A stretch of 64,000 nt of DNA from Ruminococcus flavefaciens ATCC 19208 (GTDB taxonomy: Bacteria; Bacillota; Clostridia; Oscillospirales; Ruminococcaceae), in the NCBI RefSeq assembly GCF_000518765.1, contig NZ_KI912494.1, positions 1 to 64,000 on the forward strand, written 5' to 3'. The position numbers and the translations under genes were made by a program. The first letter of the stretch is position 1. Every line of letters begins with the position of its first letter. The notes under the pieces are model-generated. The model was given only the letters and a program-made list of their open reading frames with translations, was not told the DNA's origin and did not search any database. This document shows positions 23,229-59,272 of the stretch, piece after piece.

Positions 23229-24197
23229 TCAGTCAAGAATGTCAAGGCGCATACCTATTTCTTCACCATGCTGTCTGAGATAAGACAGCTGCGTTTTTGT
23301 AAGCCATGCCTCCTCAGGGGGCTGAGTCCACGGGTGATCGGGAGTTTTGCGCCATATCCAGCCGGAACTCAGGTTAATATAATACCATGTTCCGTCGGGA
23401 GCGAGCAGCACATATTCGGGAATACCGTCGCAGGTATCCGGTGAGTAACTCAGACTTGCAAGGCTTTCAAATATATCAAGGTCTGCAAAGCCGTCAGGGT
23501 CATCGACAATAGGCTTTGTAGCAATTGGTTTTTGGCTGCCGTCGGGCGAAGTCACCACAGGGAATTCCTGTGCATGGTTTATGAAGTTATCTACGTTATC
23601 TGGCTTTGTAGAGATCGGCAGTTCTACGCCGTCAGGTGTAGTTACTACAGGGAAATCTTTTGCGTGGTCTGCGAAATCTTCTGCGCCTGTCTTTGGTGCC
23701 TGAGTTGTTTCACTGCTGCTGTCTTGATATATTCTATTTATCTCAGCATACATCGGATCAAGGTCAGTTGTTACTGCTGGTTTGTTTTCATCTCTCTCAG
23801 CGGCAGCAGTTGTATTTATATCTGAACTTTCTTTTGCTGTATTTCCGTTTTTATTTGTATCTGTAACCGATGACTCGTTATCGCTCACGTGTTCAAATGG
23901 CGAAGTCGCGTCAACTGCCGATATATCAGAGGGCAGAGCAGGTTCATCGAGCATAGGCGGACGATTTCTGAACATAAGCATACCCCCTGTACCAAGACCT
24001 GCCACAAGCAGAAATGCTGCGGCAATAAATGCAATTCGCTGCCATTTTCTTTCCTGATATATCTCAACTCCCGAAACAGTGATATTTCTTTCACTTTCGG
24101 GCTCAGATGATGGCTGATGCTCTGTATTTATCTCAGCTTCTTTTATAAGGTCTTCGTCAATAAGGTCGATGACTTTAAATAATTTCAGCTTATTCAT
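23229..24197 (-). CDS. transmembrane anti-sigma factor-like protein
   Basis: 322 residues, one membrane segment (about 54-76). The cytoplasmic part (1-53) should bind the ECF sigma factor encoded just upstream, with which it overlaps by 8 nt. It ends with TVSGVEIY at the membrane, a motif shared with three other anti-sigma proteins here. The outside part has a Thr/Asp-rich linker, then two 27-residue tandem repeats (174-200 and 203-229; FADHAKDFPVVTTPDG and FINHAQEFPVVTSPDG). A C-terminal domain with APDGTWYYINLSSGWIW follows. No zinc-finger anti-sigma motif is present. Assignment rests on gene order, topology and paralogues. Confidence 0.75.
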   Translation of the reverse strand: MNKLKLFKVIDLIDEDLIKEAEINTEHQPSSEPESERNITVSGVEIYQERKWQRIAFIAAAFLLVAGLGTGGMLMFRNRPPMLDEPALPSDISAVDATSPFEHVSDNESSVTDTNKNGNTAKESSDINTTAAAERDENKPAVTTDLDPMYAEINRIYQDSSSETTQAPKTGAEDFADHAKDFPVVTTPDGVELPISTKPDNVDNFINHAQEFPVVTSPDGSQKPIATKPIVDDPDGFADLDIFESLASLSYSPDTCDGIPEYVLLAPDGTWYYINLSSGWIWRKTPDHPWTQPPEEAWLTKTQLSYLRQHGEEIGMRLDILD

Positions 24198-24744
24198 GAT
24201 CGTAACCTTCTTTCTTTAAATAAGCTTTCAGTTTTTTTCGTGTCCGAAAAAGATAAGTTGCAGCTGTACGCTCTTTTATACCGTAATATTCAGCGATCTG
24301 TGCAAGACTGTCACCGTACCAGTAACGCCTTATGAATATTTTTCTGAGCAGCTCGTCCTGAGTTCTCAGGAAACGGCTTATAGCCTCGGCAAGAGCTTTT
24401 CCCTCGCCCATATCCTCTCTGTAGTCGGGGATACATTCCGATAGCTCCTCCAGCGAGACCGCAAATTTACTGCTGCGTTTTTCTGCGGAATTGTATTTGA
24501 GTTTATCCAGTGCCTTGTTTTTGACTGTGTGACAGAGATAGGTTTTCAGATCACTTGGCTCGTCAGGCGGAATATTGCTCCACACCTCGTAATATGCCGA
24601 ATTCACGCATTCCTCCATGTCCTGACGGTGAGAGAGGATATTTCCTGCGATATAAAAACAGAGCTTATTGTATTTTCGCTGCAATTCCGATATTGCTGTT
24701 TCATCTCTTTTGCGGAACAATTCTATTATTGAATCATCATCCAT
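24190..24744 (-). CDS. ECF RNA polymerase sigma factor
   Basis: 184 residues with sigma region 2 (about 8-75, DMEECVNSAYYEVWSNI) and region 4 (about 115-175, YWYGDSLAQIAEYYGIKERT). It directs RNA polymerase to alternative promoters when released by its membrane partner. The start follows GAAAGGAGGCTCAGCC. It is the most divergent of the eight sigma factors in the window, has no dockerin neighbour in its own operon and probably autoregulates through the site at 24817-24850. Confidence 0.9.
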   Translation of the reverse strand: MDDDSIIELFRKRDETAISELQRKYNKLCFYIAGNILSHRQDMEECVNSAYYEVWSNIPPDEPSDLKTYLCHTVKNKALDKLKYNSAEKRSSKFAVSLEELSECIPDYREDMGEGKALAEAISRFLRTQDELLRKIFIRRYWYGDSLAQIAEYYGIKERTAATYLFRTRKKLKAYLKKEGYDHE

Positions 24745-24816
24745 GGCTGAGCCTCCTTTCGTGAGGCATGAGGTCCTCTTACCTATATAGTTGAATTATT
24801 GCAGCGGATATTTCAC

Positions 24817-24850
24817 TTTTACGGAAATTTTTTAAACTGATAAAAGTTGC
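24817..24850 (-). promoter_or_regulatory. candidate ECF promoter for the 24.7-kb sigma operon
   Basis: On the minus strand GCAACTTTT (24842-24850), with the AAC core usual in ECF -35 elements, is followed by CCGTAAAA (24817-24824) 17 nt later. Confidence 0.45.
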
Positions 24851-24893
24851 AAACAGCGAGGCGGCGTTCCCGACATTGGTTTTTACACGATAA

Positions 24894-24924
24894 AAGCAGC
24901 CTGTACTTAAAGTACAGGCTGCTT
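24894..24924 (-). terminator. terminator of the sigma/anti-sigma/dockerin operon at 25-29.8 kb
   Basis: A 14-bp stem starting AAGCAGCCTGTACTT with an AA loop lies just past the stop of the 1051-residue dockerin protein. Confidence 0.75.
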
Positions 24925-24941
24925 ACGGTATAAGGTAAATA

Positions 24942-27900
24942 TCAGGTTATTGCGTCTACACCCAAGCCGTTAGCAACGGAAATATCAAGTCCGTAACGTG
25001 CAGTATTATCAAGAGAAAGTGCATTGAACTCATCGGCAGTTACGTAAATTACCAGACGCTTCGGGTCGTTCATGTACTCATATCTGATGTTCTGCTTATC
25101 GAGCTGTTTTACGGCTTCATTGGCTATGTATTTGTAATAAGCCTTTTCAGCTTCGTCATTGGCAATACGGTTTTCTTTCATTAATTCGTTGATATCGAGT
25201 CTGAGTTCTTCTTCAAGAAATTCGCCGTCAACGATATACTTTGAAAGGAGCTCTTCACCAAAGTATTCCATTCTGTCCTCGTACCATTCCTGAGTCCATT
25301 TCATGCCGTTTGGAGTACCTGTTGTGTAGACCATTTCACCGTATTTCAGCGTAGGACCGTATCCCATAAGGTCGCGGAGCTTTTCCATGTACTCACCGTA
25401 ATTTGCGTTTGCATACTCTGATAATTTTTTGCCTTTATATACAAAGTTGTAGTCAGGACTCATTGAAAGCCTGAAGTTTATAGCGAGCACTTCGTCACTT
25501 GGCTTGCGGAGCTTTTCATACAGGTTTGACATTACTTCCTTGCCATTCCATTTCGCATAAATGGAATCATAGAACATGATGTCATCATCGGATTTAGCTT
25601 CATAAGCTATCTGCGCAGCTTCCCAGCCGTTATTGCTGATGCCGACACCGTCCTCACCTACATAGAAATATATCGTCTGCTCCATGCCTGTGAAATCACT
25701 TGTGGCATTAAGCGTGTTTTCTCCGTCTGCTTTCCAGCCAAATCTGAATGTGACGCAGCCTGTGCTGCCTGTTTCGTAGTTGGAGAAGTCTATTTCAGCA
25801 GTTTCGTGGTGGTAAAGGTCATAGCAGCCAATGTTTGGACTGATATCAAGTGCCTTCATATCTTCCTTTGTGAATTCATTGGTGTACTCGCTTGTTTCGC
25901 CGTTTATGAGGAGCCTCTCATCGTCGATTTTTTTATAGTTTTCAGTAGCCGTTATGCTGTATTCGTGGTGTCCTGAATTTGGATAGCCCTCAGAATCATA
26001 ATCGGAATATTTCTGACGTGATAAGATATCTCCCATAGCCATATCTACTTTGAGAACTTCGCCCTTTGCACAGAAGGAATTGCAGTTCAGTACAAGCTTT
26101 TGTGTTGTGGAAGCAGCTGTGCTCTCAGCTCCGCCTATAAGGTATTCGGAGTTGTCAATGTTTGCAGAGCTTATGTCAAGGAGCTTAGCCATATAAGTGT
26201 TATCCACATTTGGATAATCGGCAAGCAATGGATTACCTGTGAGTATATAAACGTGCTTGTCATCGAACCACTTTATCTGAGAAAGTTTGCCTTTTGTATA
26301 AATGTATAATTTGTCGTCAAATTCATAATATGCATTATCTGCATCTGTATCGGCATTTCTCATATCTGATTTGTTGATCTGAACATCTGTAAGCTTTGGA
26401 TAAGCCAGGTAATCTTCTGAATAATGCGGACGATCATTTATTATCAAATCATAGGTCTTTCCTGAACCATCATTAAATATGTAGAAAAGTGAGAAAGTGT
26501 TATCGTACATCCAGTGACTGTTTATGGAGAACTGAACGAACTTTCCGTACTGAGTGAGCTGATCATAGGTAACTATCTTGTTTGCAAGGTCGTTTTCCTC
26601 GATATATTTTGTATATTCCTCATAGCTGTTGAAGCCTATTGTCGTAGGCTCGGAAGGAGTAATATCTTTTTCAAGGCTTACCTTTTCGCAGTCTAAAACA
26701 TTGAGCAGACCTGTAAGATCAGCTTCGGTATCGAATGTTCTTACCTTGCAGTAATGACTGCTGTCAATGCTGAAAAATGCACTTATATCGTTTTTGCCGT
26801 TATCAAGGATAATGTACATATCATCAATAGTTTTTGCGACCTTGAAGCCCAGTCTGCTGTCAAAGTATTCCCTAAAGCTTGCCGAAGCATAATCTGAGTC
26901 ATTCAGATAGTAGCATATCTGGTATTTCTTGCCCTTATAGTTCACATTATAAATTATGCCGATGTCCTCATAACTCATGCGCGGCATAAGAGCCATTCCG
27001 TTCAGCTGTATTTTTTCAGCATCGTCTTTTTCTGTGAAATGATAGATATATCCCTCATTTTTGAAGCTTGCGAACATCTGCTTATAGCTGTCATGGTAGT
27101 GTTCATCATAATCCTTGAGATCATAATTGGCGATAGTAATGACAGCGTCATTAAGGCTTTTTACTCCGATAGGCTGAGCTGTTGGCTGCATAGGATCAAC
27201 TGTATCCGAGCCGTTTACAGCTGCGTTGTAGGCTTTTTCAGCATTTTCAATACTGTCACCTATGGCAGTGCCTTTTTCGCCAACATAGTAATACATAAAT
27301 CTTTTTGTTCCGTCAGTTGAAATGCCACTGCCCAGGTCATTTATATGTTTTGAATAGAACGAGAATGTTATACAGCCTTTGCTGCCTGCCTTGTAATCAG
27401 AAAAGTCTATCTCTGTAGTTTCATGGTGGTACAGATCATAGTTTTCAAATTTACTGCCGATATCAAACAGTTTAACGTCATCTTTTGAATATTCCTTTTG
27501 ATATTCGCCTGATACTCCGTTTACTTTAAGAGTATTATCCTCAAGTTTGTGATCGTAAATGCCGTCAGATGTATAAACATCATACTCGTATACTCCTGCT
27601 GTATCGTAGTTGAGAGAGTTAAGAACAATATCTCCCATAGCTGCATCGACCTTGAGCACTTCGCCTTTAGGGCAGAATGATTTGCACTTAACTAAAATTG
27701 TTGCTGACGGTAAAGGCTTTTCGCTGTTGATGTCATCATATCCTAAAAGAACGTCAGTATTATTCGTTTTTTCGATATCAAGTCCGAGAAGCATTTTCTG
27801 TATAGTCTGAGCGTCGCCGACTGTAAGCCCGTCGCCATCCATATCTGCATTTATCTTACCCTGTGCAGTAAGGTGGCTTTCTGCTGTACCGCTTTCGCCG

Positions 27901-28097
27901 TACTTGTTTGGATTGGCAAGTGCCTGCATAATGAGCACGATATCAGCCATATCCACCTGACCGTCGCAGTTGGCATCTCCCTTGACTGTAACAGCTGATG
28001 CAGAGCTTTCGGCAGCATATGCAGCTATTCCGCTTGACAGTGGAATTGATGCAAGGCAGGTCGCTGCAAGCATTATCGACATAAATTTCTTTTTCAT
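24942..28097 (-). CDS. large secreted dockerin protein sharing a domain with the co-transcribed anti-sigma factor
   Basis: 1051 residues: signal peptide (1-29), N-terminal dockerin (39-106, LANPNKYG type), then domain A (about 133-297). Next is a domain (about 307-476) matching the ectodomain of the anti-sigma factor encoded 22 nt upstream, e.g. YEDIGIIYNVNYKGKKYQI against YEDTGIMYKVVYNGNTYQV. Another domain follows (about 487-648), then domain B (about 666-835), which repeats domain A, with KGEVLKVD.AMGDI, YDLYHHET.EIDFS and YYVGE.G in both. A 200-residue C-terminal region is unassigned. It is the last gene of a sigma/anti-sigma/dockerin operon. I see no catalytic motif; a structural or ligand-binding role in an extracellular complex is likely. 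Confidence 0.82.
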   Translation of the reverse strand: MKKKFMSIMLAATCLASIPLSSGIAAYAAESSASAVTVKGDANCDGQVDMADIVLIMQALANPNKYGESGTAESHLTAQGKINADMDGDGLTVGDAQTIQKMLLGLDIEKTNNTDVLLGYDDINSEKPLPSATILVKCKSFCPKGEVLKVDAAMGDIVLNSLNYDTAGVYEYDVYTSDGIYDHKLEDNTLKVNGVSGEYQKEYSKDDVKLFDIGSKFENYDLYHHETTEIDFSDYKAGSKGCITFSFYSKHINDLGSGISTDGTKRFMYYYVGEKGTAIGDSIENAEKAYNAAVNGSDTVDPMQPTAQPIGVKSLNDAVITIANYDLKDYDEHYHDSYKQMFASFKNEGYIYHFTEKDDAEKIQLNGMALMPRMSYEDIGIIYNVNYKGKKYQICYYLNDSDYASASFREYFDSRLGFKVAKTIDDMYIILDNGKNDISAFFSIDSSHYCKVRTFDTEADLTGLLNVLDCEKVSLEKDITPSEPTTIGFNSYEEYTKYIEENDLANKIVTYDQLTQYGKFVQFSINSHWMYDNTFSLFYIFNDGSGKTYDLIINDRPHYSEDYLAYPKLTDVQINKSDMRNADTDADNAYYEFDDKLYIYTKGKLSQIKWFDDKHVYILTGNPLLADYPNVDNTYMAKLLDISSANIDNSEYLIGGAESTAASTTQKLVLNCNSFCAKGEVLKVDMAMGDILSRQKYSDYDSEGYPNSGHHEYSITATENYKKIDDERLLINGETSEYTNEFTKEDMKALDISPNIGCYDLYHHETAEIDFSNYETGSTGCVTFRFGWKADGENTLNATSDFTGMEQTIYFYVGEDGVGISNNGWEAAQIAYEAKSDDDIMFYDSIYAKWNGKEVMSNLYEKLRKPSDEVLAINFRLSMSPDYNFVYKGKKLSEYANANYGEYMEKLRDLMGYGPTLKYGEMVYTTGTPNGMKWTQEWYEDRMEYFGEELLSKYIVDGEFLEEELRLDINELMKENRIANDEAEKAYYKYIANEAVKQLDKQNIRYEYMNDPKRLVIYVTADEFNALSLDNTARYGLDISVANGLGVDAIT

Positions 28098-28119: not shown

Positions 28120-29250
28120 TTATAGAATTACGCTTTCGTAATTAAACAGCTCTAAAAATGCGATAAGCTCGCCTTTTGTGGTGTATGCTGAAGTGTAAAA
28201 ATAGTGTTCCTCGTCAATGAAAAATGCTGCGCTTACCTGACTTTGATCGCTTGAATAAAGTATACTATAGGTCTGATGTCCTACGACAATTTCATCATAT
28301 ATCGTTCGTTTAAAACGGTCGTAGAGATACTTTGGAACATTGTAGGGACTTTTTATAACAGAAGTATCGGCGTATCTGAATGATACCTGATACGTGTTTC
28401 CATTGTAAACTACCTTGTACATGATACCCGTGTCCTCGTATGCAGCATTCGGCAGAAGAATAACAGTATCTTTTTGTTCTAATTCGTCTGTATTGTCTGT
28501 TACAGGACGATAAACAACACCGTCATCATTAAACCTGTCGAACATTTTGCGGTAAGCACTACGGTATTCCTCAGCATATGAAGATACATCATTCTGCTTA
28601 ATGGTATCTATAGCTTCGTCAGCACTATTAAAAATGATCGGCTGAGCATTAAAGGTCGGCTCGGGGTTAACAGCTGATGAAGAAGTTGTTGCAACGCCGG
28701 GACCTTCATGTATAACATCTGTAGTAGTAGAAGTTGACGGCTTTTCTTTATAGGCATCATCTGTAGTTGACGTCACGGGCTGTGTATAAATTACAGTCGT
28801 CTTAGCCGATTGTACACCTGTGGTTTTGGCAGTTGTCGGTGCAGTATTTCGGCTTGTTGCAGCAGGTACAGCAGCGGTAGTTGTTCGTACCTTATCTGCT
28901 GTTATCGTCCTGTTTGTATTTGCTTTTGAAGTAGTTGCAGCTGTGGTAACAGCCGCATTTTTACTGCTTGTCTGTGTCGCAGACTGCTTTTCGGTAGTGA
29001 CCTCAGTAGTTACGAAGTCGGTTGCTGAGGTCGTAGTTATTGCAGGTTCGTCTATAGTATCGGATACCATAGGGTCAGAATTCATACTGCCAAAATGCTT
29101 CCAGCAGCCCAATCCGATGCCTGCCACCAGACAGAAGCTTACTAAGGCGGGGACAGTACGTTTTAAGATCAGTATCCTTTTTTTCTTCTTTTCTTGATAT
29201 TCGTCATATCTGGAAAGCAAGCTCTGATACATTTCATCGTTATTCTTCAT
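28120..29250 (-). CDS. transmembrane anti-sigma factor with dockerin-protein-like ectodomain
   Basis: 376 residues from ATG 29250 (MKNNDEMYQSL), which follows AAAGGAG. A short charged cytoplasmic part is followed by a membrane segment (about 32-48), a Thr/Ala-rich linker (about 65-200) and a globular ectodomain (about 203-376). The ectodomain aligns along its length with residues 307-476 of the dockerin protein downstream: shared features include ..YRKMF..F...GVVY, YEDTGIMYKVVYNG and SAAFFIDEEHYF. The gene overlaps the sigma gene by 11 nt. It should hold the sigma factor at the membrane until an outside signal acts on the ectodomain. Confidence 0.8.
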   Translation of the reverse strand: MKNNDEMYQSLLSRYDEYQEKKKKRILILKRTVPALVSFCLVAGIGLGCWKHFGSMNSDPMVSDTIDEPAITTTSATDFVTTEVTTEKQSATQTSSKNAAVTTAATTSKANTNRTITADKVRTTTAAVPAATSRNTAPTTAKTTGVQSAKTTVIYTQPVTSTTDDAYKEKPSTSTTTDVIHEGPGVATTSSSAVNPEPTFNAQPIIFNSADEAIDTIKQNDVSSYAEEYRSAYRKMFDRFNDDGVVYRPVTDNTDELEQKDTVILLPNAAYEDTGIMYKVVYNGNTYQVSFRYADTSVIKSPYNVPKYLYDRFKRTIYDEIVVGHQTYSILYSSDQSQVSAAFFIDEEHYFYTSAYTTKGELIAFLELFNYESVIL

Positions 29251-29791
29251 ATTCAAAGCCACTCCTTTCCAGTTCGGATCTTAACGCTTTTTTCGCGTTA
29301 TAAAGCAATGCCTTTATCTGATTGCTGCTTTTTTTCATTATCACAGCTGCTTCAGAGTTGCTGAATCCCTCGAAATAGCTGAGATACAGTATCTGACGGT
29401 ATTCGAGCTTCAATCTGTGCATAGCCTTATGCACAACGCGCTTCTGCTCATTTTTTATGTAATCGCCTTCGATATTTTCTTCGTCAGAAAAGTTATCCTG
29501 TTCTTCAAGCGGAACGACGCTGAGCTTTTTATGCTTTCGGAGATATTTTGCTGTGATATTGCGTCCTATAGCATAAAGCCATGTTTTGAACGAGCTTTTC
29601 CCTGAGAACTTGGGACGTTTTTTCATGAGCTCAAAAAATGTGTCCTCAGTCAGTTCTTCAGCTGTGTGTATATCCTGAACAAAGCTGTTCAAATAAAGTA
29701 TCAAACCTGCCCGATAGGCACAGATGATCTCATGCAGTCCTTCATTGTCGCCCGCAAGAAAACGGCGGTAGCTACTTTCACCGTTATCCAT
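29240..29791 (-). CDS. ECF sigma factor, group 1
   Basis: 183 residues. Region 2 includes EELTEDTFFELMKKRPKFSG and KTWLYAIGRNI; region 4 includes YRQILYLSYFEGFSNSEAA. It begins MDNGESSYRRFLAGD, nearly the same as the sigma factors at 31.9 and 37.5 kb, showing recent duplication. The start follows GAGGAGGACTCCCC. First gene of the sigma/anti-sigma/dockerin operon. Confidence 0.92.
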   Translation of the reverse strand: MDNGESSYRRFLAGDNEGLHEIICAYRAGLILYLNSFVQDIHTAEELTEDTFFELMKKRPKFSGKSSFKTWLYAIGRNITAKYLRKHKKLSVVPLEEQDNFSDEENIEGDYIKNEQKRVVHKAMHRLKLEYRQILYLSYFEGFSNSEAAVIMKKSSNQIKALLYNAKKALRSELERSGFEYEE

Positions 29792-30011: not shown

Positions 30012-31574
30012 TTACTTTATATCAAGCAGATTTTTCTGTATAGCCTGAGCATCGCCAACTGTCAGTCCGTTGCCGTCCATGTCGGCATTAGCCTTGCCCT
30101 GTGCTGTCAGGTGAAGCTCTGCTGTACCGTTTTCACCGTATTTATTAGGATTTGCAAGAGCCTGCATGATAAGGACTACGTCTGCCATATCTGCCTGACC
30201 GTCGCAGTTAGCATCGCCTTTTACATTAATTGCATCATAGACCCAGTATACCTTTTCGCCGTTGATAATGTGTACGAGAGTGAAGAGCTCATTGCTGATA
30301 CCGTTCTGCTCGGCAAATTCCAGCATCTGCTTCTTCTGCTCAGTCGTTACATTTTCTGTAACGTACTCAATAACGAGAGGCGGATAGTAGCTCGGGTACT
30401 CCGCGCTTGTCAGGCACTTTGCGTCCAGACCATTGTCCTCAATGTACTTGTTCAGCTTATCCATTGCTTCCTGTACCTCTGCAGAAACTGTTGTAGTTGT
30501 TATTGGTACATCTTTAGGAAGTGTTGTAGTAGTTGTTATCGGTGTATCATTATTTTCTTTCGGCGGATCAGAACAAGCTATGTAATCGTAGTAGAAGCCT
30601 GCAAAATATTCATTGAACTGAACATAGTTCCAAGCCGCATACATACTATTATCCGCCTGAGCTGTTATAGGTATGATCTCAAAAGCACAGTACTTAGTGT
30701 AACCTTCGCCCTTATCTACCGTTACAGCCCCTCTCTGTTTTATTGCAAACATATCTGTCGGAAGTCCCATTTCTTCGATGATCTTGTCATCTTCCCAGCA
30801 TACCTTGTAATCATCTGCAAGCGCTTCATTGGATACAGGGAACGGATTAGCTTCAAGAAGAACCCATACCCTTCCGATCTTATTCATTTGTGCCATATCA
30901 TCTTTTGACCATAACCTGTATTTCAGACCTTCTGTCATTCCGTTTTCTGCAAACAGTGCCTTGAATTCATCAAGTGACATTCCTCTGATGTCATCGAATG
31001 TGATATCAGAGTCGCTGCAATCAACAGGCGTATACCCTAAATCCTCGGCTGATACATATTCAGACTGCTTTATGACACTTCCCTTGATACGGTCTGAACC
31101 TGCTATCTTGTAAATCTGCTCGGGAGTTAATGAGCATCTCAGAGCTGTTCCTGTAAAGTTCGCCTCTGAAACGTCAATTCCTATAAAGTCGCAGACTTCT
31201 TTTGTTTTAGCAGCATAAGCTTCCTCATACTTCTTCTGGGAAAGATCATTTTTATAAGCACCGACCATTTCGTTTATCTCTTCTGCTGAATATACTGATG
31301 TATCCAGTGTATTTTTATATTCCTCCGCAGCTTTGTTTACTCTTGGAATGATTATTGAATAGTCGATCTTGAATGTACACCACATCATTACGTCTATCTT
31401 TTCAAGTCCTGCATCAATGTCCTTTTTCAGTTCCTCTGAAATCTTAATGTTTTCTTCCGCTGCACTCGTCTGAACTATTGCGGTCTGCGGCTGAGCTGCA
31501 ACAGCATTAAACGGAACAGCGATACAGCTTGTCAGCATTGAAGCTGTCAGCAAAATATTGATCATTTTTTTCAT
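30012..31574 (-). CDS. secreted dockerin protein, divergent from the 31.9-kb sigma gene
   Basis: 520 residues: signal peptide (1-27), a large unassigned region (about 40-345), a Thr-rich linker (about 350-370), an alpha/beta module and a C-terminal LANPNKYG dockerin (about 452-520). The module (about 375-445; VIEYVTENVTTEQKKQMLEF) resembles repeats in the dockerin protein at 36224 (VEYYWKNEDVTEQIKAFLAE). The start follows AAGGAGGTCTTAGT. Its promoter has the same -35 heptamer, spacer length and -10 as the divergent sigma gene, so both are probably controlled by that sigma factor. No catalytic motif is seen. Confidence 0.82.
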   Translation of the reverse strand: MKKMINILLTASMLTSCIAVPFNAVAAQPQTAIVQTSAAEENIKISEELKKDIDAGLEKIDVMMWCTFKIDYSIIIPRVNKAAEEYKNTLDTSVYSAEEINEMVGAYKNDLSQKKYEEAYAAKTKEVCDFIGIDVSEANFTGTALRCSLTPEQIYKIAGSDRIKGSVIKQSEYVSAEDLGYTPVDCSDSDITFDDIRGMSLDEFKALFAENGMTEGLKYRLWSKDDMAQMNKIGRVWVLLEANPFPVSNEALADDYKVCWEDDKIIEEMGLPTDMFAIKQRGAVTVDKGEGYTKYCAFEIIPITAQADNSMYAAWNYVQFNEYFAGFYYDYIACSDPPKENNDTPITTTTTLPKDVPITTTTVSAEVQEAMDKLNKYIEDNGLDAKCLTSAEYPSYYPPLVIEYVTENVTTEQKKQMLEFAEQNGISNELFTLVHIINGEKVYWVYDAINVKGDANCDGQADMADVVLIMQALANPNKYGENGTAELHLTAQGKANADMDGNGLTVGDAQAIQKNLLDIK

Positions 31575-31663: not shown

Positions 31664-31699
31664 CACTAATTAGTCGCAGTTTTTATATCCCAAATCGCA
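31664..31699 (-). promoter_or_regulatory. ECF promoter of the 30.0-kb dockerin gene
   Basis: Minus strand TGCGATT (31693-31699), 16 nt, CGACTAATTAGTG (31664-31676). The -35, spacer and first ten -10 bases are identical to the site at 31808-31840. Confidence 0.7.
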
Positions 31700-31807: not shown

Positions 31808-31840
31808 TGCGATTCTGACAGCTTTTTATACGACTAATTA
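31808..31840 (+). promoter_or_regulatory. ECF promoter of the 31.9-kb sigma operon
   Basis: TGCGATT (31808-31814), 16 nt, CGACTAATTA (31831-31840). Confidence 0.7.
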
Positions 31841-51443: not shown

Positions 51444-53168
51444 TTACTCATTATACAGAAGAGAAATCTGTATTGCAATGGCATCATTGAGGGTAATGCC
51501 GTCGTTATTGCCTGTAACATCGGCGTTTATTTTGCCCTGATCTGAGAGCTGATATTTATTCGGATTTGCCAGAGACTGCATTATGATAACTGTATCTGAA
51601 AGATCCTTGCCGCCATCAATATTTGCGTCGCCTTCAAGTGTTGAAACAGGTTCTTCTTCGATCTCTTCTTCGTAATCATCGTACAGCTTTACCTTTAAAG
51701 GCTGAAATTCAGAAGTATCAATGACCTCGTCCTTTTCGGGCTGTCTTACGATAGTGAATTTTCCTGCCTCGTCCTCAGGAGTATGATAGTTTGTTGCGCA
51801 GTACCAGCCGAAGTAAGAATCATATTCAAACCAGCCTGATATATTGATATGAGTGCCTATTTTTAGTTCGTCAAGACCCGGGTTGTTTGTCATGAAGGCA
51901 AACTTGTATCCGCCCTCAACCGTGAATATCTCACCGTATTCTATACCTATTATTTTAACGTCTTCTAACTCAGGGGCATACTGCATCATGTGATCAGCAC
52001 AAAGTCTTTTATCTATTATCTTGCGCTTGCTGAAATCCTTCTTTATCTCCATTTCAGCATATTGCTCGTAATCCGGGTTTGCGGAAATGAGCTCATAATC
52101 ACCTGTGAATGCATAAAATTCATCTGCATTTGCGAAGTATTGGAAAAATCCCGAAACTCTTATAACATCGCCTCTGCCAAGCTCATACGGATCATGTTCG
52201 GCCGTGCTAAAGCCCCATCTTGTTCCGTCCTCGGCAACAATGATAAATGAGTCGATTTCCTTTACGGTTATTTCCTTATTAAATTTGTAAAGTGTGTAGT
52301 CATAGTAATGAACGGGATATTTGCCTTCGGGCTGCTTGCCGTCGAAAAGGTATCTCATTTCGGCAGCAGTAGTTGTGGTAGTAGTAGGGCAGGTAGTTAT
52401 ATCGTTGACATTAGTGGTAGTAGTAACGATCTCTGTTTCTTCGACCCAGTTACCGTCCTCATCTTCATAACCGCCATATCCGTTATAGCCGATCACGTAG
52501 TCGCAGATACCCATATAGCTGTCAACATTATAGAACATATCGCTGTCCTTGTCGTAAGCGAATTCCCCTTCAAGGCTTATGCAGTTGTTCTTTTTGAACA
52601 TATCGGTGTAATTTTGCAGACCGCTGCTTACGTACAGCTTCATACCGTTATCGACAGTTATAGTGTCCTTATCTGCATCAATTACATAAGTTCCGTACGA
52701 GCCGAACTCAAGATGCGGCATTTCTGCTATCTTTGCTTCCAGCTCCTTGTCCTGCTTTGTCTCGCTCTGAACGAGCTTTATATCAGCTGTGCAGTTAAGG
52801 TAAAGGTCCTGAGTCTCACTGTAAGCAAATTCACCTGAAATGCTTATCTTATTGCCCTTCTGGAACATACCTGTATAGACCTTTTTTTCGCCGCTGTTTA
52901 CGTAGAGCTTTTTGCCGTCATCAAGTGTGATGACTTCGTATGAAGCGTCAACTACTTCTGCGCAGTCATATTCAAGATCAACTCGCGGGAGCACGATTCC
53001 GCTTGACGGCTGTGGTTCTTCGTTCGGGTCGGGAGGATCAATACCTATCGCAACTATGATAGAAGGTTCGTCAGGAGCGGCGTTTGCTGAAAGAGCAGAA
53101 GTATTGATCTGTGGAACGACAGCCATTGCGCATGACAACACAACGGCTATACTTCTTTTGATGTTCAT
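51444..53168 (-). CDS. secreted dockerin protein with four tandem repeats shared with the divergent anti-sigma factor
   Basis: 574 residues from ATG 53168 (MNIKRSIAVV), after AAGGAGGTATTTATC. Signal peptide (1-31), four related beta-rich domains (about 67-125, 152-218, 290-360, 400-460) and a C-terminal dockerin (about 512-574, LANPNKYQ). Each domain runs from a strand like DTITVDNGMKLYV to an SGEFAY or EGEFAYDK strand. The anti-sigma protein at 54254 has two copies (SGSFAYDK; EDGQKWIFST against EDGTRWGFST here). The gene diverges from that sigma/anti-sigma operon and has the same promoter. No catalytic motif; the fold resembles OB-type ligand-binding domains (inference). Confidence 0.83.
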   Translation of the reverse strand: MNIKRSIAVVLSCAMAVVPQINTSALSANAAPDEPSIIVAIGIDPPDPNEEPQPSSGIVLPRVDLEYDCAEVVDASYEVITLDDGKKLYVNSGEKKVYTGMFQKGNKISISGEFAYSETQDLYLNCTADIKLVQSETKQDKELEAKIAEMPHLEFGSYGTYVIDADKDTITVDNGMKLYVSSGLQNYTDMFKKNNCISLEGEFAYDKDSDMFYNVDSYMGICDYVIGYNGYGGYEDEDGNWVEETEIVTTTTNVNDITTCPTTTTTTAAEMRYLFDGKQPEGKYPVHYYDYTLYKFNKEITVKEIDSFIIVAEDGTRWGFSTAEHDPYELGRGDVIRVSGFFQYFANADEFYAFTGDYELISANPDYEQYAEMEIKKDFSKRKIIDKRLCADHMMQYAPELEDVKIIGIEYGEIFTVEGGYKFAFMTNNPGLDELKIGTHINISGWFEYDSYFGWYCATNYHTPEDEAGKFTIVRQPEKDEVIDTSEFQPLKVKLYDDYEEEIEEEPVSTLEGDANIDGGKDLSDTVIIMQSLANPNKYQLSDQGKINADVTGNNDGITLNDAIAIQISLLYNE

Positions 53169-53308
53169 GATAAATACCTCCTTATGAACGTGATAGTGTC
53201 GTGCAGGCATGATTTAGGGAGACGTCACGCCTGCATCAACGGGGGGGAATGTACTTTCGGGAGCGTCCTCTCAAAAGTATATAGAAAAATGCGGTTTTAA
53301 AACCTTTA

Positions 53309-53345
53309 CACTTATTAGTCTTTAAAAAATAAAAAAACACTCACC
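53309..53345 (-). promoter_or_regulatory. ECF promoter of the 51.4-kb dockerin gene
   Basis: Minus strand GGTGAGTG (53338-53345), 16 nt, AGACTAATAAGTG (53309-53321). Confidence 0.75.
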
Positions 53346-53484: not shown

Positions 53485-53518
53485 TGTGAGTGTTTTTTTA
53501 TTGTTAAGAGACTAATTA
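53485..53518 (+). promoter_or_regulatory. ECF promoter of the 53.5-kb sigma operon
   Basis: TGTGAGTG (53485-53492), 16 nt, AGACTAATTA (53509-53518), matching the divergent dockerin promoter in -35, spacing and -10. Confidence 0.75.
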
Positions 53519-53544: not shown

Positions 53545-54279
53545 ATGTTATTTGAAAACAGATACTCTCCGTCAGAACGTAATGTGAGATACAGCAGTGG
53601 TGCAGCTGTATACCGCAGCGTATTTGCCGCAGTACAGGACATAATTATGCAGACGGGCTGCCTTACGGTCATGGAAAAGCTTTTTGAGGCAACGTCTGCC
53701 GACAGTATTAGAAGCGAAAAAGGTGCAAACAATTACAACAGATTTATAAATGGCGATAACGACGGAATGACGGAGGTCATACGGGAATACAAGGACGGTC
53801 TTTCTCTTTATATAAACAGCATGGTGCGGAATATCTGCGAAGCAGAGGAGCTTATGGAGGAGACCTTTGTCGAGCTTATTATGAAAAAGCCTAAGTATTC
53901 AGGCAAGAGCTCGTTCAAGACATGGCTTTATGCTATAGGAAGAAACATTACTTATGATTATTTAAAAAAGCGTTCAAAGAATTATGACCTTCCCATTGAT
54001 GAGCTGTATGATATTTCAGATGAAGAGAATCTTGAGAAGTCGTACATACAGCAGGAGCAGAATATAGCTTTATACAGGGCTTTGGGCAGTGTCAACACTG
54101 ATTACGGACAGGCATTGCATCTTGTATATATCGAAGGACTAAGCATAAAGGAAGCAGCTCAGGTGATGAAAAAGACTAAAAAGCAGGTCGAAAATCTTGT
54201 TTGCCGCGGAAAAAAGGCAATGAGAGCACAGCTTGAGAAGGAGGGCTTTGTTTATGAAGGATTATATTCAAGTAAGTGA
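53545..54279 (+). CDS. ECF sigma factor, group 1, with N-terminal extension
   Basis: 244 residues, about 60 longer than its three paralogues. The shared part begins near residue 60 (GANNYNRFINGD) and has region 2 (EELMEETFVELIMKKPKYSG, KTWLYAIGRNITYDYLKK) and region 4 (YGQALHLVYIEGLSIKEAA). The extension is supported by the ribosome site AGGAGGAG just before ATG 53545 and by the -10 only 26 nt upstream. A shorter start at 53671 would lack both. The extension is unassigned. It overlaps its anti-sigma gene by 26 nt. Confidence 0.88.
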   Translation: MLFENRYSPSERNVRYSSGAAVYRSVFAAVQDIIMQTGCLTVMEKLFEATSADSIRSEKGANNYNRFINGDNDGMTEVIREYKDGLSLYINSMVRNICEAEELMEETFVELIMKKPKYSGKSSFKTWLYAIGRNITYDYLKKRSKNYDLPIDELYDISDEENLEKSYIQQEQNIALYRALGSVNTDYGQALHLVYIEGLSIKEAAQVMKKTKKQVENLVCRGKKAMRAQLEKEGFVYEGLYSSK

Positions 54280-55384
54280 AAGCGTCTTTCGTAAAGCTGA
54301 GGAGCGCATGGCAGAGAAGAAACGCCGTTCAATGAAGGTGAAGCGAAATACTTTAGCTGCGACCGGTGCGGCGGCTGTACTTTTCGTAGTTCTTATGCAG
54401 AATGAGGAAATAAGCAATGCAATCAAGTCATTCCCTAAATTTGTAAGCAGTATGTGGTCGGGTGATGAGCCTACAACTACTCAGATGACCACACAGCCAA
54501 CAGTAACGACTACTGCCGTAGTGACTACAACGCAGGCTGTGACAGATACTACCGAGACTACTACTGAGGAAACCACAACGACGACTACTACTACAACTAC
54601 ACAGCCTGTTACAACAGAACCGCCCATAGTTACGACTGTATCGCCTATAGACGGGCTTCCGAGAATGAGATCGGGTTCATGGAGCGAAGAGGTCGTTTCA
54701 GTGACGAATGATACACTTACCTTTGCAAACGGAATGACTATCAACTTTGCATATGGTTCACCTGATTTCAGGAATCAATTCAAAGTAGGGGACGAAATAA
54801 TATATTCAGGCAGCTTTGCATATGATAAAAGCAATAAGATATATTATTATCTCAGCGAGGGACGATTTGAAAAATGCGGCGGGCTCTCTGTGCAGTCGGC
54901 TTATCATGAAGAGCAGGAAACCGAGAAAACAACGGAATATCACAATGAAAATAATGATTATCAACAGTACGATGATCACGAGGGATATCCTGAGGATTAT
55001 CCCGAAGATTATGACGACTATGAAGATTACGAAGACGATGATTACGGAGATTATGTAGATAAGCCGTTTGAGTATGTAGATGACGGAACTCCTGCAATGG
55101 ATTATGCAGAGATAGTAAATGACCCTGATTTTGAATTTCAGGACAGAAACTTCTATAAATTAAAGGTCAATGGTATAAAGGTCAAGAGCAAAGAGGGTGC
55201 GTATATTATTTCCGAGGACGGTCAGAAGTGGATCTTTTCCACTCATAGCCTTAGCGGCATGACTGAAAGCGAGGTCTATGGTATAAAAGAAGGCGATGTC
55301 TTGAATATAGAAGGATATTTCTATTATCTGGCATTTGACGGCTCTATCTATAATCTTGAAATGAAGATAGAAAAGGTAAAATAG
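54254..55384 (+). CDS. transmembrane anti-sigma factor with two dockerin-protein-like domains
   Basis: 376 residues from ATG 54254 after AAGGAGGGCTTTG. Cytoplasmic helix (1-31, EKKRRSMKVKRN), membrane segment (about 32-48), Thr-rich linker (about 73-128), first beta-domain (143-205), an Asp/Tyr-rich acidic linker (234-270) and a second beta-domain (297-372). Both beta-domains resemble the repeats of the divergent dockerin protein at 51444. The acidic linker could bind calcium or cell-wall polymers (inference). It should hold its sigma factor at the membrane. Confidence 0.82.
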   Translation: MKDYIQVSESVFRKAEERMAEKKRRSMKVKRNTLAATGAAAVLFVVLMQNEEISNAIKSFPKFVSSMWSGDEPTTTQMTTQPTVTTTAVVTTTQAVTDTTETTTEETTTTTTTTTTQPVTTEPPIVTTVSPIDGLPRMRSGSWSEEVVSVTNDTLTFANGMTINFAYGSPDFRNQFKVGDEIIYSGSFAYDKSNKIYYYLSEGRFEKCGGLSVQSAYHEEQETEKTTEYHNENNDYQQYDDHEGYPEDYPEDYDDYEDYEDDDYGDYVDKPFEYVDDGTPAMDYAEIVNDPDFEFQDRNFYKLKVNGIKVKSKEGAYIISEDGQKWIFSTHSLSGMTESEVYGIKEGDVLNIEGYFYYLAFDGSIYNLEMKIEKVK

Positions 55385-55431: not shown

Positions 55432-56676
55432 TTAATACTTGTGATAGAAGTCCTTTGTAAGCTCATCGAGCCATTCAACGTCCTCGGGCTTGACTTCGCT
55501 GAGTTTTGCGTTCCATTCTTCCTCTGTACATTCTTCACGGTTTATAGTATAAACTTCTTTATCACCGACAACTGTGCATTGAAGCTGAGTTTGAAGTTCT
55601 AGTTCATTATTTTCATTGAGTTTAAATACCAAATAGATAGTAGGTGAGGAATTAGCTTTTATTATGACTATACCGTTTTTATTGTTATGGTGAACCCAGA
55701 TATTTTCTGATTTTGTAGTGATAGCTTCATATTTATTACCTTTTAAAGCATAAAGCTCACATACGCTGCTTGATTCGGGAGCATTTGATGTGAAATACTG
55801 TATAAACAGCTCAGGTATATCATCGCCGTTGATGTCGTATTCGCAATAGAAAGCGTCAGTGATGTTGTCATCGGCATTGTCGATGAATTCCTGCAAGCAC
55901 TGATTTAAAAGGTCTACATGGTTATTGCCGTACTTCAAGTCGTCAGAGGTCAGACCGTATGCGGTATTGCAGTTTGAGAGCTTGTCAGTAAGAGCTATGG
56001 CAGTTTCAGCATCAAAGTTTCCGTGTATCATGAAACCTGTAGACATAATTCCATCGACTATACGTGTAGAAATACATTCACCGTCTACCCATATGGATAT
56101 GGGAGTTTCTGTGCCTGCGATCTCTGAGGTAGCCTCTGCAAATAGCTGTTGACCTTCTTCGTCAAATGCTACTTGTATAGCATATTCTGATCCGTCGTTT
56201 TCGTCAAGCAAACACATTTCAGCCTTTTTAATATTACTTCCCGTTAGTATAACAGGACTTTCGGGACTGTCGCCCTTGCGGAAAAATACTTCATGCTGTT
56301 TGATGCTGTCAATCGGAAGAGAAGTAGATTCTTCGCTTACGGTAGTTTCTTCTATATCCGAGCCGTTAATACTGCCATTCCTGTGCAAAAGAGCTGCACC
56401 GCCTGCGATACCGCCTACAATAGCGATACAAGCAGCAACGGCAGTGAATACCTTCCGCATAGTCCTCGGACGGTAAGGCTCAGAACCGCTTACGGTATCC
56501 TCGTTATGGTCTGCAATGTCATTATTATTTATATTGAACTTTCTTCTGCTCATTTCCAGTATTTTTTTCTTTTCATCGCTGCTTACAGGAGCGATTTTTT
56601 TGGAAAGAGACTCTAATTCGCTGAGTTCGGCATTCTCGATGATACCGAAATCAATTTCTTTGTTGTTGTCTTTCAT
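55432..56676 (-). CDS. transmembrane anti-sigma factor with SecD-head-like and EF-hand-like ectodomains
   Basis: 414 residues. Cytoplasmic part (1-72) with TVSGSEPYRPR at the membrane, one membrane segment (about 74-97), then a domain (about 140-236) like the periplasmic head of SecD/SecDF: FDEEGQQLFAEATSEIAG, ISIWVDGECIS and FMIHGNFDAETAIALTDKL. A second domain begins near 255 and has DINGDDIPEL (281-290), an EF-hand-like calcium loop also found in the 57.5-kb paralogue. Coupled to its sigma gene by a 4-nt overlap. The SecD similarity is from motif recall. Confidence 0.78.
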   Translation of the reverse strand: MKDNNKEIDFGIIENAELSELESLSKKIAPVSSDEKKKILEMSRRKFNINNNDIADHNEDTVSGSEPYRPRTMRKVFTAVAACIAIVGGIAGGAALLHRNGSINGSDIEETTVSEESTSLPIDSIKQHEVFFRKGDSPESPVILTGSNIKKAEMCLLDENDGSEYAIQVAFDEEGQQLFAEATSEIAGTETPISIWVDGECISTRIVDGIMSTGFMIHGNFDAETAIALTDKLSNCNTAYGLTSDDLKYGNNHVDLLNQCLQEFIDNADDNITDAFYCEYDINGDDIPELFIQYFTSNAPESSSVCELYALKGNKYEAITTKSENIWVHHNNKNGIVIIKANSSPTIYLVFKLNENNELELQTQLQCTVVGDKEVYTINREECTEEEWNAKLSEVKPEDVEWLDELTKDFYHKY

Positions 56677-57257
56677 AATTCTGCCTCCTTCAAAGATATA
56701 TCGAGTTCAGCCAGTTTATCTTTGATCCGTCTAATGGCTCTTGAGCATCTTACCCTGACAGCGGCAGGTTCAAGGGAAACAGTTTCCGCAATTTCCTTTG
56801 AATTCATGCCGTAGTAGTATTTCTGGATTATGATAGTTGAATCAGGTTCTCCAAGCTCTTCAACGAGTCTCAGAAGAGTCCTGCGAAGCTCCGCGCGTTC
56901 AGCATTGTGTGCGATGTCGGTATCATCGCGTATATTGTCCGCGTCACCCTCTTCAAGTGAGACAGTACGTCCGCTTTTTGAGATAATGCTATGGAACATA
57001 TTTATAGCCTTCCTTATAGCGACAGTGCTGATGAAGCCTTTTATATTTTCGTTCTGTTGTTCTGAGTTTTGAGTGAAGTAAGAGAATATATCCGCGAAAA
57101 CATCACTGACGCATTCTTCGATATCTTCCTTTGTCGCGCAGCTTCTCAGCTTATTGAAAACGATCGTATAAACGTAGCTGAAATACTCATCGAACAGGGC
57201 ATTCTGAGCTTCCTGCGGAGATTTTCTGAAAAGTTTCCGGTAATCCTTATCTGTCAT
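56673..57257 (-). CDS. ECF sigma factor, group 2
   Basis: 194 residues. Region 2: KEDIEECVSDVFADIFSYF; GEPDSTIIIQKYYYGMNSKE precedes the region 4 helix AVRVRCSRAIRRIKDKL. The first 50 residues (MTDKDYRKLFRKSPQEAQNA) match the 58.7-kb paralogue closely. The start follows GGGGGGATCTGCC. Confidence 0.9.
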   Translation of the reverse strand: MTDKDYRKLFRKSPQEAQNALFDEYFSYVYTIVFNKLRSCATKEDIEECVSDVFADIFSYFTQNSEQQNENIKGFISTVAIRKAINMFHSIISKSGRTVSLEEGDADNIRDDTDIAHNAERAELRRTLLRLVEELGEPDSTIIIQKYYYGMNSKEIAETVSLEPAAVRVRCSRAIRRIKDKLAELDISLKEAEL

Positions 57258-57301
57258 GGCAGATCCCCCCTTGTATATGAAAAGTAGTTATGCGCATTTC
57301 C

Positions 57302-57343
57302 GCTTTCATAATATATACTCAAAGAGAACAGATAAAGTGCAAC
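57302..57343 (-). promoter_or_regulatory. candidate group 2 ECF promoter of the 56.7-kb sigma operon
   Basis: Minus strand GTTGCACTT (57335-57343), then GTATATATTATGAAAGC starting 17 nt later (end 57302). The TATGAAAGC end is shared with the sites near 46.1, 47.8 and 59.3 kb. Confidence 0.5.
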
Positions 57344-57423
57344 AAAAAATATTCTACCACATAAATAAATCAATCCTGTAGGACGACCATTGACCGTTCG
57401 CATATTGATCTGATGCAAACATG

Positions 57424-57449
57424 AAAAAAGGCGCACGATCGTGCGCCTT
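57424..57449 (-). terminator. terminator of the 57.5-kb anti-sigma gene
   Basis: Perfect palindrome built on AAGGCGCACGA (57428-57449); on the minus strand it is followed by a T-run. Confidence 0.75.
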
Positions 57450-57455
57450 CTCTCA

Positions 57456-58697
57456 TTATAATGCAGGATAGTCATAAGAATTTTCCTCATACATTTCTGC
57501 TTTGATGTTCTTGTCAGCATAGAATGTTTCAGCGTTCATCCGATCTCCGGGAAGATTGCCGATTTTTGAACTGTCGTATATAGGATTATCGCTATTAATA
57601 TACCTATCGTATGTGTTAACCAATTCGCCGTATTCATAATAACCCTGATAATTGAACTGAGCAACGTTAGTAAACGAATTATCACTGTCGAATTTTATTT
57701 TTCGTGTAAAGTTGTATCCTGACTTGTCCTCAAGGTAAAGACATTTATCCTCCTGATTGTAAGTCATCCACTGAGCATCTATATAAAGGATCATTTCGTA
57801 GCCGTCTATGTCGCAGCCTTTTACTGTTGGAGCTATGAACTCATTTCCGTCATAGATAAACATTATTGTTCTTGCTCCGCTTTCGCCTCTCATATCATAA
57901 GAGATAAAGAGTTCAGGAACTGAATCGCCGTTGATGTCGCGCATATCAGCCTTTATGTCCCATATAGGTGATGTGTCTATCTCAACTTCATATGGGCTGG
58001 TCGATTTACCGTAACCATAGAAGTTCTTGCCGAACATGAACTTATCCATAGCTTTCTGAAAAGCCGCATCGAGCTTTTCCTGAGTAGCCTCGGCAGGATC
58101 TATTGAGTCATATTTCGATATCCATTTCGGATCAATTTCAGTTACGACAGGTTCTGTATTATTTACAGGAGCTTCATTCGCAGCTGCGGCTGTAGTAATT
58201 TCGGCAGAAGTAACAGTGTTCACATTTGTATCTGTAACAGTAGTCTTTGCAGCTGCTGTACTCTTGGTTGAAGCAGCTGTACCTGTTTCGGTCGCAGTTG
58301 TATTTACGGTAGTTCCGGAAACTATGGTAGTAGTAGCCTTTTCAAGGGGCTCGGGAGTATCAGGTGAATCTCCGTTGTTTCTGCCAAACATATAAATGCT
58401 TCCGCAAACCAGTGTCAGTGCAGCAGCAGAGCAGAGGACAGTATATATTATCCTTGAAATGCCCTTGCGGCTGTAGTTTTCAACGCCTGTAACAGCGTCC
58501 TCGTTTTCTGATATATTTTCATTTCTTTGTTCTTTGTCAAGCATTTCTTTTTCCACTTTGTATTTCTTATTTGTGATCTTTAGCATACGGTCTCTTGCAG
58601 ACTTGTCTATCATCATATTATCAGCACCTATTTTCTCAAGGTCATTGATATCGGAGTTTTCAAGGACATCAAAGCCTATTATTTTGTTATCCTTCAT
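57456..58697 (-). CDS. transmembrane anti-sigma factor with EF-hand-like ectodomain
   Basis: 413 residues. Cytoplasmic part (1-80) with AVTGVENYSRK at the membrane, membrane segment (about 81-104), Thr-rich linker (about 120-185) and an ectodomain (about 190-413). The ectodomain contains DINGDSVPELFISY (254-267), very like DINGDDIPELFIQY in the 55.4-kb paralogue. It lacks the SecD-like domain of that paralogue. Coupled to its sigma gene by a 4-nt overlap. Confidence 0.78.
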   Translation of the reverse strand: MKDNKIIGFDVLENSDINDLEKIGADNMMIDKSARDRMLKITNKKYKVEKEMLDKEQRNENISENEDAVTGVENYSRKGISRIIYTVLCSAAALTLVCGSIYMFGRNNGDSPDTPEPLEKATTTIVSGTTVNTTATETGTAASTKSTAAAKTTVTDTNVNTVTSAEITTAAAANEAPVNNTEPVVTEIDPKWISKYDSIDPAEATQEKLDAAFQKAMDKFMFGKNFYGYGKSTSPYEVEIDTSPIWDIKADMRDINGDSVPELFISYDMRGESGARTIMFIYDGNEFIAPTVKGCDIDGYEMILYIDAQWMTYNQEDKCLYLEDKSGYNFTRKIKFDSDNSFTNVAQFNYQGYYEYGELVNTYDRYINSDNPIYDSSKIGNLPGDRMNAETFYADKNIKAEMYEENSYDYPAL

Positions 58698-59272
58698 ATA
58701 TTTCCCTCCTTCAGGTCATAGCCTTCCGCAGAAAGCAGTTCTTTCAGTTTTTTCAGTGCTCTGCTGCATTTCACTCTTACAACAGCAGGTGACATACTAA
58801 GCTTCTGCGCTATTTCAGTGGAATTCATGTTGTAATAATACTTTTGTATTATCATTGTAGACTCGGGTTCTCCGAGATTTTTTATTAGCTTTAGCAGTAT
58901 ACTGCGAGTTTCGGAGCGTTCTGCATTTTCTTCCATGCGTTCATTGTCTGCAAATTCCGTAGTTTCGTCCTCGATATAAACAGTGGAATTGCTTTTGGAA
59001 GAAAGCTTGCGGAACATCTGTATAGCCTTTCTGCTTGCAACAGTGCCTATAAAGCCTTTAAGGTCTCCGTCGAATTTTCTTTCTCTGTCATAGCTTATAA
59101 ATACTGCGGAGAAAGTATCTCCCACACATTCTTCTATATCCTCGCGGCTTCCGCAGCTTCTGAGCTTATTGTAAACTATAGCGTATACATATTTGAGATA
59201 CTCGTCAAACAGAGCAGTCTGAGCTGCCTGCGGTGACTTTCCGTACATAGTACGGTATTCTTTATCTGTCAT
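58694..59272 (-). CDS. ECF sigma factor, group 2
   Basis: 192 residues. MTDKEYRTMYGKSPQAAQTA, region 2 REDIEECVGDTFSAVF, GEPESTMIIQKYYYNMNSTE, region 4 AVVRVKCSRALKKLKELL. The start follows GAGGTGGTAAT. Paralogue of the sigma gene at 56.7 kb with the same gene order, indicating a tandem duplication of the pair. Confidence 0.9.
   Translation of the reverse strand: MTDKEYRTMYGKSPQAAQTALFDEYLKYVYAIVYNKLRSCGSREDIEECVGDTFSAVFISYDRERKFDGDLKGFIGTVASRKAIQMFRKLSSKSNSTVYIEDETTEFADNERMEENAERSETRSILLKLIKNLGEPESTMIIQKYYYNMNSTEIAQKLSMSPAVVRVKCSRALKKLKELLSAEGYDLKEGNI

Follow-up and report, generated by a model that had tools for sequence, protein, structure and literature searches.

The window analysed here is a 64,000-nucleotide (nt) stretch of Ruminococcus flavefaciens ATCC 19208, a fibre-digesting rumen bacterium, and corresponds to C11:1-64000 of a 3.59-Mb genome on 25 contigs (contigs and loci are cited by C and L numbers, genes of the window by their first coordinate). 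It carries eight genes for extracytoplasmic function (ECF) sigma factors, each overlapping by 4-47 nt the gene of a partner with one membrane segment (from hydropathy and reading by eye), together with genes for dockerin proteins. The eight sigma open reading frames (ORFs) and their partners were present where a first-pass annotation of the same DNA had placed them. The sigma factors had been expected to have intact regions 2 and 4; this held for region 4 (PF08281), above cut-off in all eight, but for region 2 (PF04542) in six only, as sigma 47881 stayed below the cut-off (21.2 vs 24 bits) and sigma 56673 gave no reported match. TIGR02937 (sigma70-ECF) was above cut-off in all three sigmas scanned for it (37522, 58694 and 24190). 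The proposed division into three classes agreed with the sequence identities: the remaining three group-1 sigmas were 45-54% identical to sigma 37522, the other two group-2 sigmas 44-53% identical to sigma 58694, and the singleton, sigma 24190, 20-27% identical to the other seven. As had been reported, the zinc-finger anti-sigma motif HxxxCxxC was absent from all eight partners. A Thr-rich stalk had previously been ascribed to every partner; because the Thr+Ser fraction of residues 60-200 was higher in the four group-1 partners than in the other four (0.31-0.45 vs 0.14-0.27), the stalk is mainly a group-1 feature.

The genome holds 9 group-1 and 14 group-2 sigma genes, totals that rest on a self-chosen bit-score cut, and 4 and 3 of these, respectively, lie within 36 kb. 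Pfam dockerin matches numbered 140 genome-wide (expectation value (E) up to 0.001). A dockerin ORF, detected partly by profiles built in this analysis, was found at most 500 nt away from 7 of the 9 group-1 pairs, compared with 3/14 group-2 pairs and 9/146 other genes; the group-1 figure rises to 8/9 with the sigma start at 53545 (gap of 335 nt by coordinates). The link between group 1 and dockerin genes that had been suggested for the window was therefore upheld across the genome. Group-1 sigmas were detected in 47 of 60 sampled genomes of the genus (E up to 1e-45), with a maximum of 21 in a genome with 6% contamination. The closest named locus was that of R. flavefaciens YAD2003, with a sigma 96% identical to 37522 (near-identical records may be omitted). 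The set of group-1 pairs used below comprised 97 pairs, 9 from this genome and 88 from named loci, and excluded two sigmas without a partner.

Each of the three divergent sigma/dockerin gene pairs in the window has its own version of a promoter-like dyad. In the whole genome, the exact TGCGATT/CGACTAAT dyad occurs at two sites, ahead of sigma 31897 and dockerin 30012, and the exact GTGAGTGT/GACTAAT dyad also at two, ahead of sigma 53545 and dockerin 51444. The exact TGAGACA/ACGACTTAT dyad has three sites: sigma 37522, dockerin 36224, which heads three dockerin genes spaced about 30 nt, and C1:353377, which precedes an ORF whose frame contains the dockerin match C1:355317-355502. Backward-read controls of the three dyads gave no site in the whole genome. 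The fourth group-1 sigma, 29240, lies with partner 28120 and dockerin 24942 in one operon (22 nt apart). On this sequence evidence, a putative private promoter type is common to three window group-1 sigmas and their divergent dockerin genes, and the fourth sigma shares a predicted operon with its dockerin gene. A two-part motif, TGAGA and CGTC separated by 17 nt, was present in 21 of 80 non-redundant regions (of 97) upstream of group-1 sigmas, while the commonest pattern of each of five simple shuffles reached 5. The general form TGAGA-N15-19-CGTCTAAT gave five exact matches in the genome (control 1), four of them ahead of dockerin ORFs: one at the radical-SAM/dockerin 41813 operon, one at a dockerin-serpin gene in L018, and two at ORFs in frame with the dockerin matches C3:69854-70048 and C2:617656-617826. 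An acyltransferase-like ORF follows the fifth.

The outer domains of some group-1 partners copy modules of the neighbouring dockerin proteins. The outer domain of partner 28120 matched the module of dockerin 24942, here called E1 (31% over 191 amino acids (aa), E 7e-21), and that of partner 54233 matched the repeats of dockerin 51444 (E 1e-7 and 9e-6). Partners 32417 and 38063, aligned with their relatives, gave a match to the first part of E2, a domain of dockerin 33435 (hhalign E 2e-5, probability 77, 74 columns); taken singly, 38063 matched and 32417 did not. A further E1 copy pair was found at L110, where the sigma lies beyond the retrieved stretch. Five of the 97 group-1 pairs matched a neighbour at the same locus (blastp E < 1e-3), L015 through the shared dockerin alone. 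At L034 (uncultured Ruminococcus) and L035 (R. flavefaciens FD-1), the partner was 87% (132 aa) and 86.5% (156 aa) identical to its own neighbour, whereas module identity between the two genomes was lower (78.5% over 135 aa and 75.6% over 160 aa); longer, unmasked alignments gave 79.5% and 75-82.5% within and 70-76% across genomes. Between the two anti-sigmas, identity was 54% over 348 aa. Since the copies at these two loci are closer to their own neighbours than to those of the other genome, sensor module and neighbour module may evolve in concert.

Known domain families were not recognised in these proteins. A Pfam scan gave no family above cut-off for the four group-1 partners, and a set of eight proteins likewise stayed below every cut-off. 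In NCBIfam, two group-1 partners, three dockerin proteins and a fused ORF of the type described below had no match above cut-off either. The AlphaFold models of E2 and E1 had a mean predicted local distance difference test score (pLDDT) of 91 and 81. Foldseek searches with these models found no convincing solved relative (best E 0.47 and 0.0013; listed template modelling (TM) scores < 0.3). The best VIA-align scores were Z 6.8 for E2 (4r7r, 103 aligned, root-mean-square deviation (rmsd) 3.5) and Z 7.0 for E1 (1vr8, 107 aligned, rmsd 4.0), both in the range the tool calls common. In PDB sequence searches, the best match of E2 was an unconvincing copper ATPase (E 0.0038), and the outer region at 54.6-55.4 kb had no match.

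At four other loci of the same genome (L013, L015, L018 and L028), the partner ORF runs in frame through a complete secreted dockerin protein, with an internal Met, a signal peptide, EF-hand-like repeats and a C-terminal dockerin. Of the sigmas at these loci, two belong to group 1 and two do not. A profile built from the four ORFs gave long matches across the genus, among the matches listed, and at least 26 of 60 genus genomes, this one included, hold a fused ORF with internal start and signal peptide. A cultured strain, R. flavefaciens YL228, carries a fused ORF at L104:12258-13919. Sixty-eight ORFs carrying the anti-sigma part were kept, the single-ORF state being a selection criterion and not a result. 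The internal Met and signal peptide were present in 66/68 and the dockerin was reached in 64/68; among representatives below 60% identity (n=47), both figures were 45/47. The two exceptions to the first figure are L124, which has GTC at the place of the ATG, and L107, without Met and signal peptide. L107 and L056 keep an EF-hand-type outer domain unfused, which at L056 is followed by a secreted dockerin gene. Stand-alone secreted homologues begin at the equivalent Met in L165 and L166, with no sigma ORF among the ORFs listed there. Thirteen of the 88 named-locus partners had a dockerin-like match (iterated profile, some weak), and 12 named-locus partners were followed by a separate dockerin gene within 100 nt.

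A Shine-Dalgarno sequence (at least 4 letters, spacing 4-11) preceded 40 of 45 junction ATGs, compared with 54 of 697 other internal ATGs (p = 1.7e-34, overstated since the fused ORFs are related and were found with a fused profile); with at least 5 letters, the counts were 27/45 and 12/697. The junction DNA reads GAA(A/G)GGAG at -15 to -8, each place being kept in 35-41 of 45 except the A/G one, and the encoded peptide differs (ERS, EGS, HRR, EGG) where this DNA stays. Codon usage at the junction was biased: AGG made up 25 of 33 Arg codons (17% elsewhere) and GGG 12 of 20 Gly codons (4% elsewhere). The conservation of the DNA and of these codons while the peptide varies therefore points to selection on the junction as a ribosome-binding site. 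As codon choice preserves the internal Shine-Dalgarno sequence, one fused gene probably makes both a membrane sensor and a secreted protein. The fused dockerin of L013 was closest to 5M2O (Doc1a; E 1.7e-16).

Beyond the genus, the fused form was found in none of 196 other genomes of the order at a strict cut (E 1e-45), so that a general occurrence of the fusion across the order was rejected. The fused anti-sigma genes L013:12593-16120 and L018:10609-12534 lie near dockerin-like serpin genes, one of which sits behind a group-1-type promoter site.

We consider it fairly probable that group 1 consists of separate ECF switches that mirror their own output, including a fused form with two products. 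This proposal starts from features read in the DNA (the sigma/partner pairing, the shared dyads, the shared modules, the in-frame fusion, and the conserved internal Shine-Dalgarno sequence and signal peptide). A short N-terminal segment of the partner would hold the sigma factor. A ligand outside the cell would lead to sigma release, probably by stepwise proteolysis, by analogy with other membrane anti-sigmas. The freed sigma would transcribe its own operon and the neighbouring dockerin gene or genes from that switch's private promoter. In some switches the cell would thus sense with a copy of the module that it exports; because the sensor copies, or is the same chain as, the exported module, the exported dockerin protein could compete with the sensor, and negative feedback would close the loop. 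In the fused form, the long product, translated after the sigma, would be a membrane anti-sigma that carries the dockerin protein at its end, and initiation in the cell at the second start inside the ORF would give the secreted dockerin protein. The first-pass annotation had suggested that the cluster is a locus for sensing substrates or assembly. Group 1 is better read as four separate switches than as one sensing locus; the earlier interpretation omitted the private promoters, the sensor domains copied from dockerin modules and the sister loci fused into one ORF.

Several observations weigh against such self-mirroring switches. The dyad patterns were derived from the very sites they recovered, by exact matching, so that only their rarity elsewhere is informative. 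Among 17 divergent sigma/dockerin pairs from this genome and the named loci, five without a site on one side were dropped (three of them with CotH-like dockerin genes, by eye); 9 of the remaining 12 shared all seven -35 letters, yet so did 51 of 192 mismatched pairs, a figure inflated by the many mismatched pairs that are orthologues. Promoter sharing thus appears weaker beyond the window than within it. An unfused copy in the neighbour was found by blastp for only 4 of the 97 group-1 pairs, and the proposition that every group-1 partner mirrors its neighbour was rejected (these 4 plus the fused ones). The usual outer domain, E2, is mainly an anti-sigma domain: near-full-length matches numbered 21 outside dockerin proteins as against 3 in orthologous dockerin proteins, next to 13 partial matches. 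At L014 in this genome, the group-1 pair has a partner of another type and lacks a dockerin gene beside it. The fused set was retrieved by a fused profile and its members are mutually related, and the signal-peptide segment after the membrane helix makes the topology of the long product ambiguous. The pairs might instead be ordinary ECF switches beside cellulosome genes, with dedicated sensor domains, and the shared modules might come from domain shuffling among neighbouring surface proteins, with no mirroring logic. This account, which we hold to be possible but rather doubtful, agrees with the finding that most group-1 partners bear E2 or other domains absent from their neighbours; against it, the own-genome copies at L034 and L035 are closer than the cross-genome ones, and the fusion is recurrent and retained.

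The fused loci could also be read in terms of a single translation product. They might make one protein, a membrane anti-sigma with a dockerin tip, in which the internal Shine-Dalgarno sequence and signal peptide are relics of the fusion, as the partners of L080 and L088, which have a dockerin at the end but show no internal signal peptide to the eye, would allow. We think this unlikely, since relics would be expected to have decayed at less than 60% identity, yet 40/45 keep the Shine-Dalgarno sequence with biased codons and 45/47 the Met and signal peptide. Alternatively, the long product might be a precursor that signal peptidase cuts after the internal signal-peptide-like segment, freeing the dockerin protein, with the clipped anti-sigma then degraded. 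In 42 of 45, an AxA-like site does follow the internal Met at a distance of 15-40 residues, but cleavage leaves the conserved Shine-Dalgarno sequence and codon bias unexplained, and this explanation seems improbable to us, slightly more so than the relics.

Within the two-product reading of the fused loci, a more specific role may be tentatively suggested, although we rate its chances as low. The fused switch may count vacant cohesins: the anchored dockerin would dock to free scaffoldin cohesins, the secreted short product would fill them, and the switch would shut off once the places in the cellulosome are full. The unfused switches of the window would work in the same way, except that a copied module would respond to another ligand. 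That the fused sensor reads free cohesins is speculation based on its dockerins being closest to group-1 dockerins, which bind ScaA and ScaB cohesins. The dockerin of 24942 is likewise a group-1 dockerin by sequence, closest to 5M2S (Doc1b; E 3.5e-20), and the available text of PMC5429695 describes binding of ScaA and ScaB cohesins by the group-1 dockerins Doc1a and Doc1b.

Table 1. Coordinates of sigma/partner pairs, dockerin genes and promoter-like sites in the window.
Feature	Position	Strand	Basis
Group-1 ECF sigma 29240	29240..29791	-	Pfam regions, identity to 37522
Partner 28120 of sigma 29240, outer domain E1 copying dockerin 24942 module	28120..29262	-	sequence and profile match
Dockerin protein 24942 with E1 module, operon with 29240/28120 (22-nt gap)	24942..28097	-	
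Group-1 ECF sigma 31897	31897..32451	+	
Partner 32417 of sigma 31897, short outer domain resembling E2 start	32417..33376	+	profile with relatives
Promoter-like dyad TGCGATT...CGACTAAT of sigma 31897	31808..31838	+	
TGCGATT...CGACTAAT dyad ahead of dockerin 30012	31669..31699	-	
Dockerin protein 30012, predicted target of sigma 31897	30012..31574	-	
Group-1 ECF sigma 37522	37522..38076	+	
Partner 38063 of sigma 37522, N-terminal part of domain E2	38063..39121	+	
Promoter-like dyad TGAGACA...ACGACTTAT of sigma 37522	37427..37456	+	
TGAGACA...ACGACTTAT dyad ahead of dockerin 36224	37330..37360	-	
Dockerin protein 36224, first in likely three-gene operon	36224..37279	-	
Dockerin protein 35147, second gene of likely operon	35147..36193	-	
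Dockerin protein 33435, third gene, full E2 domain at 33456-33947	33435..35114	-	
Group-1 ECF sigma 53545, N-terminal extension of ~55 aa	53545..54279	+	
Partner 54233 of sigma 53545, outer repeats copying those of dockerin 51444	54233..55384	+	
Promoter-like dyad GTGAGTGT...GACTAAT of sigma 53545	53486..53516	+	
GTGAGTGT...GACTAAT dyad ahead of dockerin 51444	53314..53344	-	
Dockerin protein 51444, predicted target of sigma 53545	51444..53210	-	
Promoter-like TGAGAG...CGTCTAAT ahead of radical-SAM gene and dockerin 41813	43453..43482	-	
Group-2 pair, sigma 47881 and partner 48450, outside mirrored system as far as tested	47881..49757	+	
Two group-2 pairs, sigmas 56673 and 58694, outside mirrored system as far as tested	55432..59272	-	
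Singleton pair, sigma 24190 and partner 23229; related pair L011:6030-7530	23229..24744	-	

As far as tested, the group-2 pairs and the pair at 24.2 kb resemble ordinary sigma/partner pairs. Mirroring in group 2 was rejected, as no dockerin match was found for group-2 partners. The partners of group 2 and of the singleton share a motif of about V(S/T/R)G(V/S)ExY just before the membrane segment (by eye; 23229-24197, 48450-49757, 55432-58697 and L016-L026), the proteins being otherwise different. The group-1 sigma at L014:8035-10396 has a partner that resembles those of group 2, with a VSGIE motif, which may reflect an exchange of partners. The group-2 partner at 55432-56676 (-) matched the SecDF P1 head subdomain PF22599 with 41.6 bits (cut-off 27).

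Some other features of the window were also noted. A Shine-Dalgarno sequence and the promoter-like site upstream support the N-terminal extension of sigma 53545, and open frames of 243-258 aa hold several other sigmas of the genus. At 41813-43422 (-), a radical-SAM gene encoding CxxxCxxC and a tail rich in Cys (read by eye) overlaps the gene of a small, Thr-rich dockerin protein; this operon, behind its group-1-type promoter site, possibly yields a modified cellulosome peptide. By eye, a secreted protein at 46414-47682 (+) resembles a GH11 xylanase carrying a CBM22-like domain.

The switches are candidate regulators for part of the R. flavefaciens dockerin proteins of unknown function, and their promoters are specific enough to name target genes. 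Feedback in which the sensor copies the output, or comes from one gene with it, would be an unusual design and is directly testable. A literature search of titles and abstract openings, with subscription journals mostly outside its coverage, found no description of such switches. For R. flavefaciens FD-1, the part of PMC2930009 consulted reports 118 dockerin proteins with 155 unknown domains, and the word 'sigma' occurs 0 times in its main text. The proteins described here resemble those in having domains of unknown function with group-1-like dockerins, but differ from that account, as far as the consulted part goes, in that some of the unknown modules appear to double as sensor domains.

The closest parallel in logic is the SigI/RsgI system of Clostridium thermocellum, Acetivibrio and Pseudobacteroides, in which, according to the available parts of PMC12484212 and PMC12203970, several parallel sigma/membrane anti-sigma pairs per genome are tied to cellulosome genes and outer sensor domains can resemble modules of the regulated proteins. 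The same sources describe RsgI anti-sigmas as sensing polysaccharides by outer carbohydrate-binding modules (PMC12484212) and as undergoing stepwise cleavage (PMC12203970). Membership of this family fails, however, and the first-pass annotation was right to keep the two apart: the sigmas are of ECF type, with ECF families as the best NCBIfam matches of the three of eight scanned (sigma 37522 scored 106 bits against the SigM subfamily, cut-off 148), and a Pfam scan (E up to 1) matched no RsgI domain in the eight partners. Group 1 further differs in its outer domains without a Pfam or NCBIfam name, in modules copied from the adjacent target itself, and in the in-frame fusion with an internal start. 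With ECF sigma/membrane anti-sigma pairs in general, the group-1 pairs share overlapping genes, a single membrane helix and likely autoregulation; they differ from these in having no zinc-binding motif and in that the partner has its outer domain, or its entire C-terminus, in common with the predicted target.

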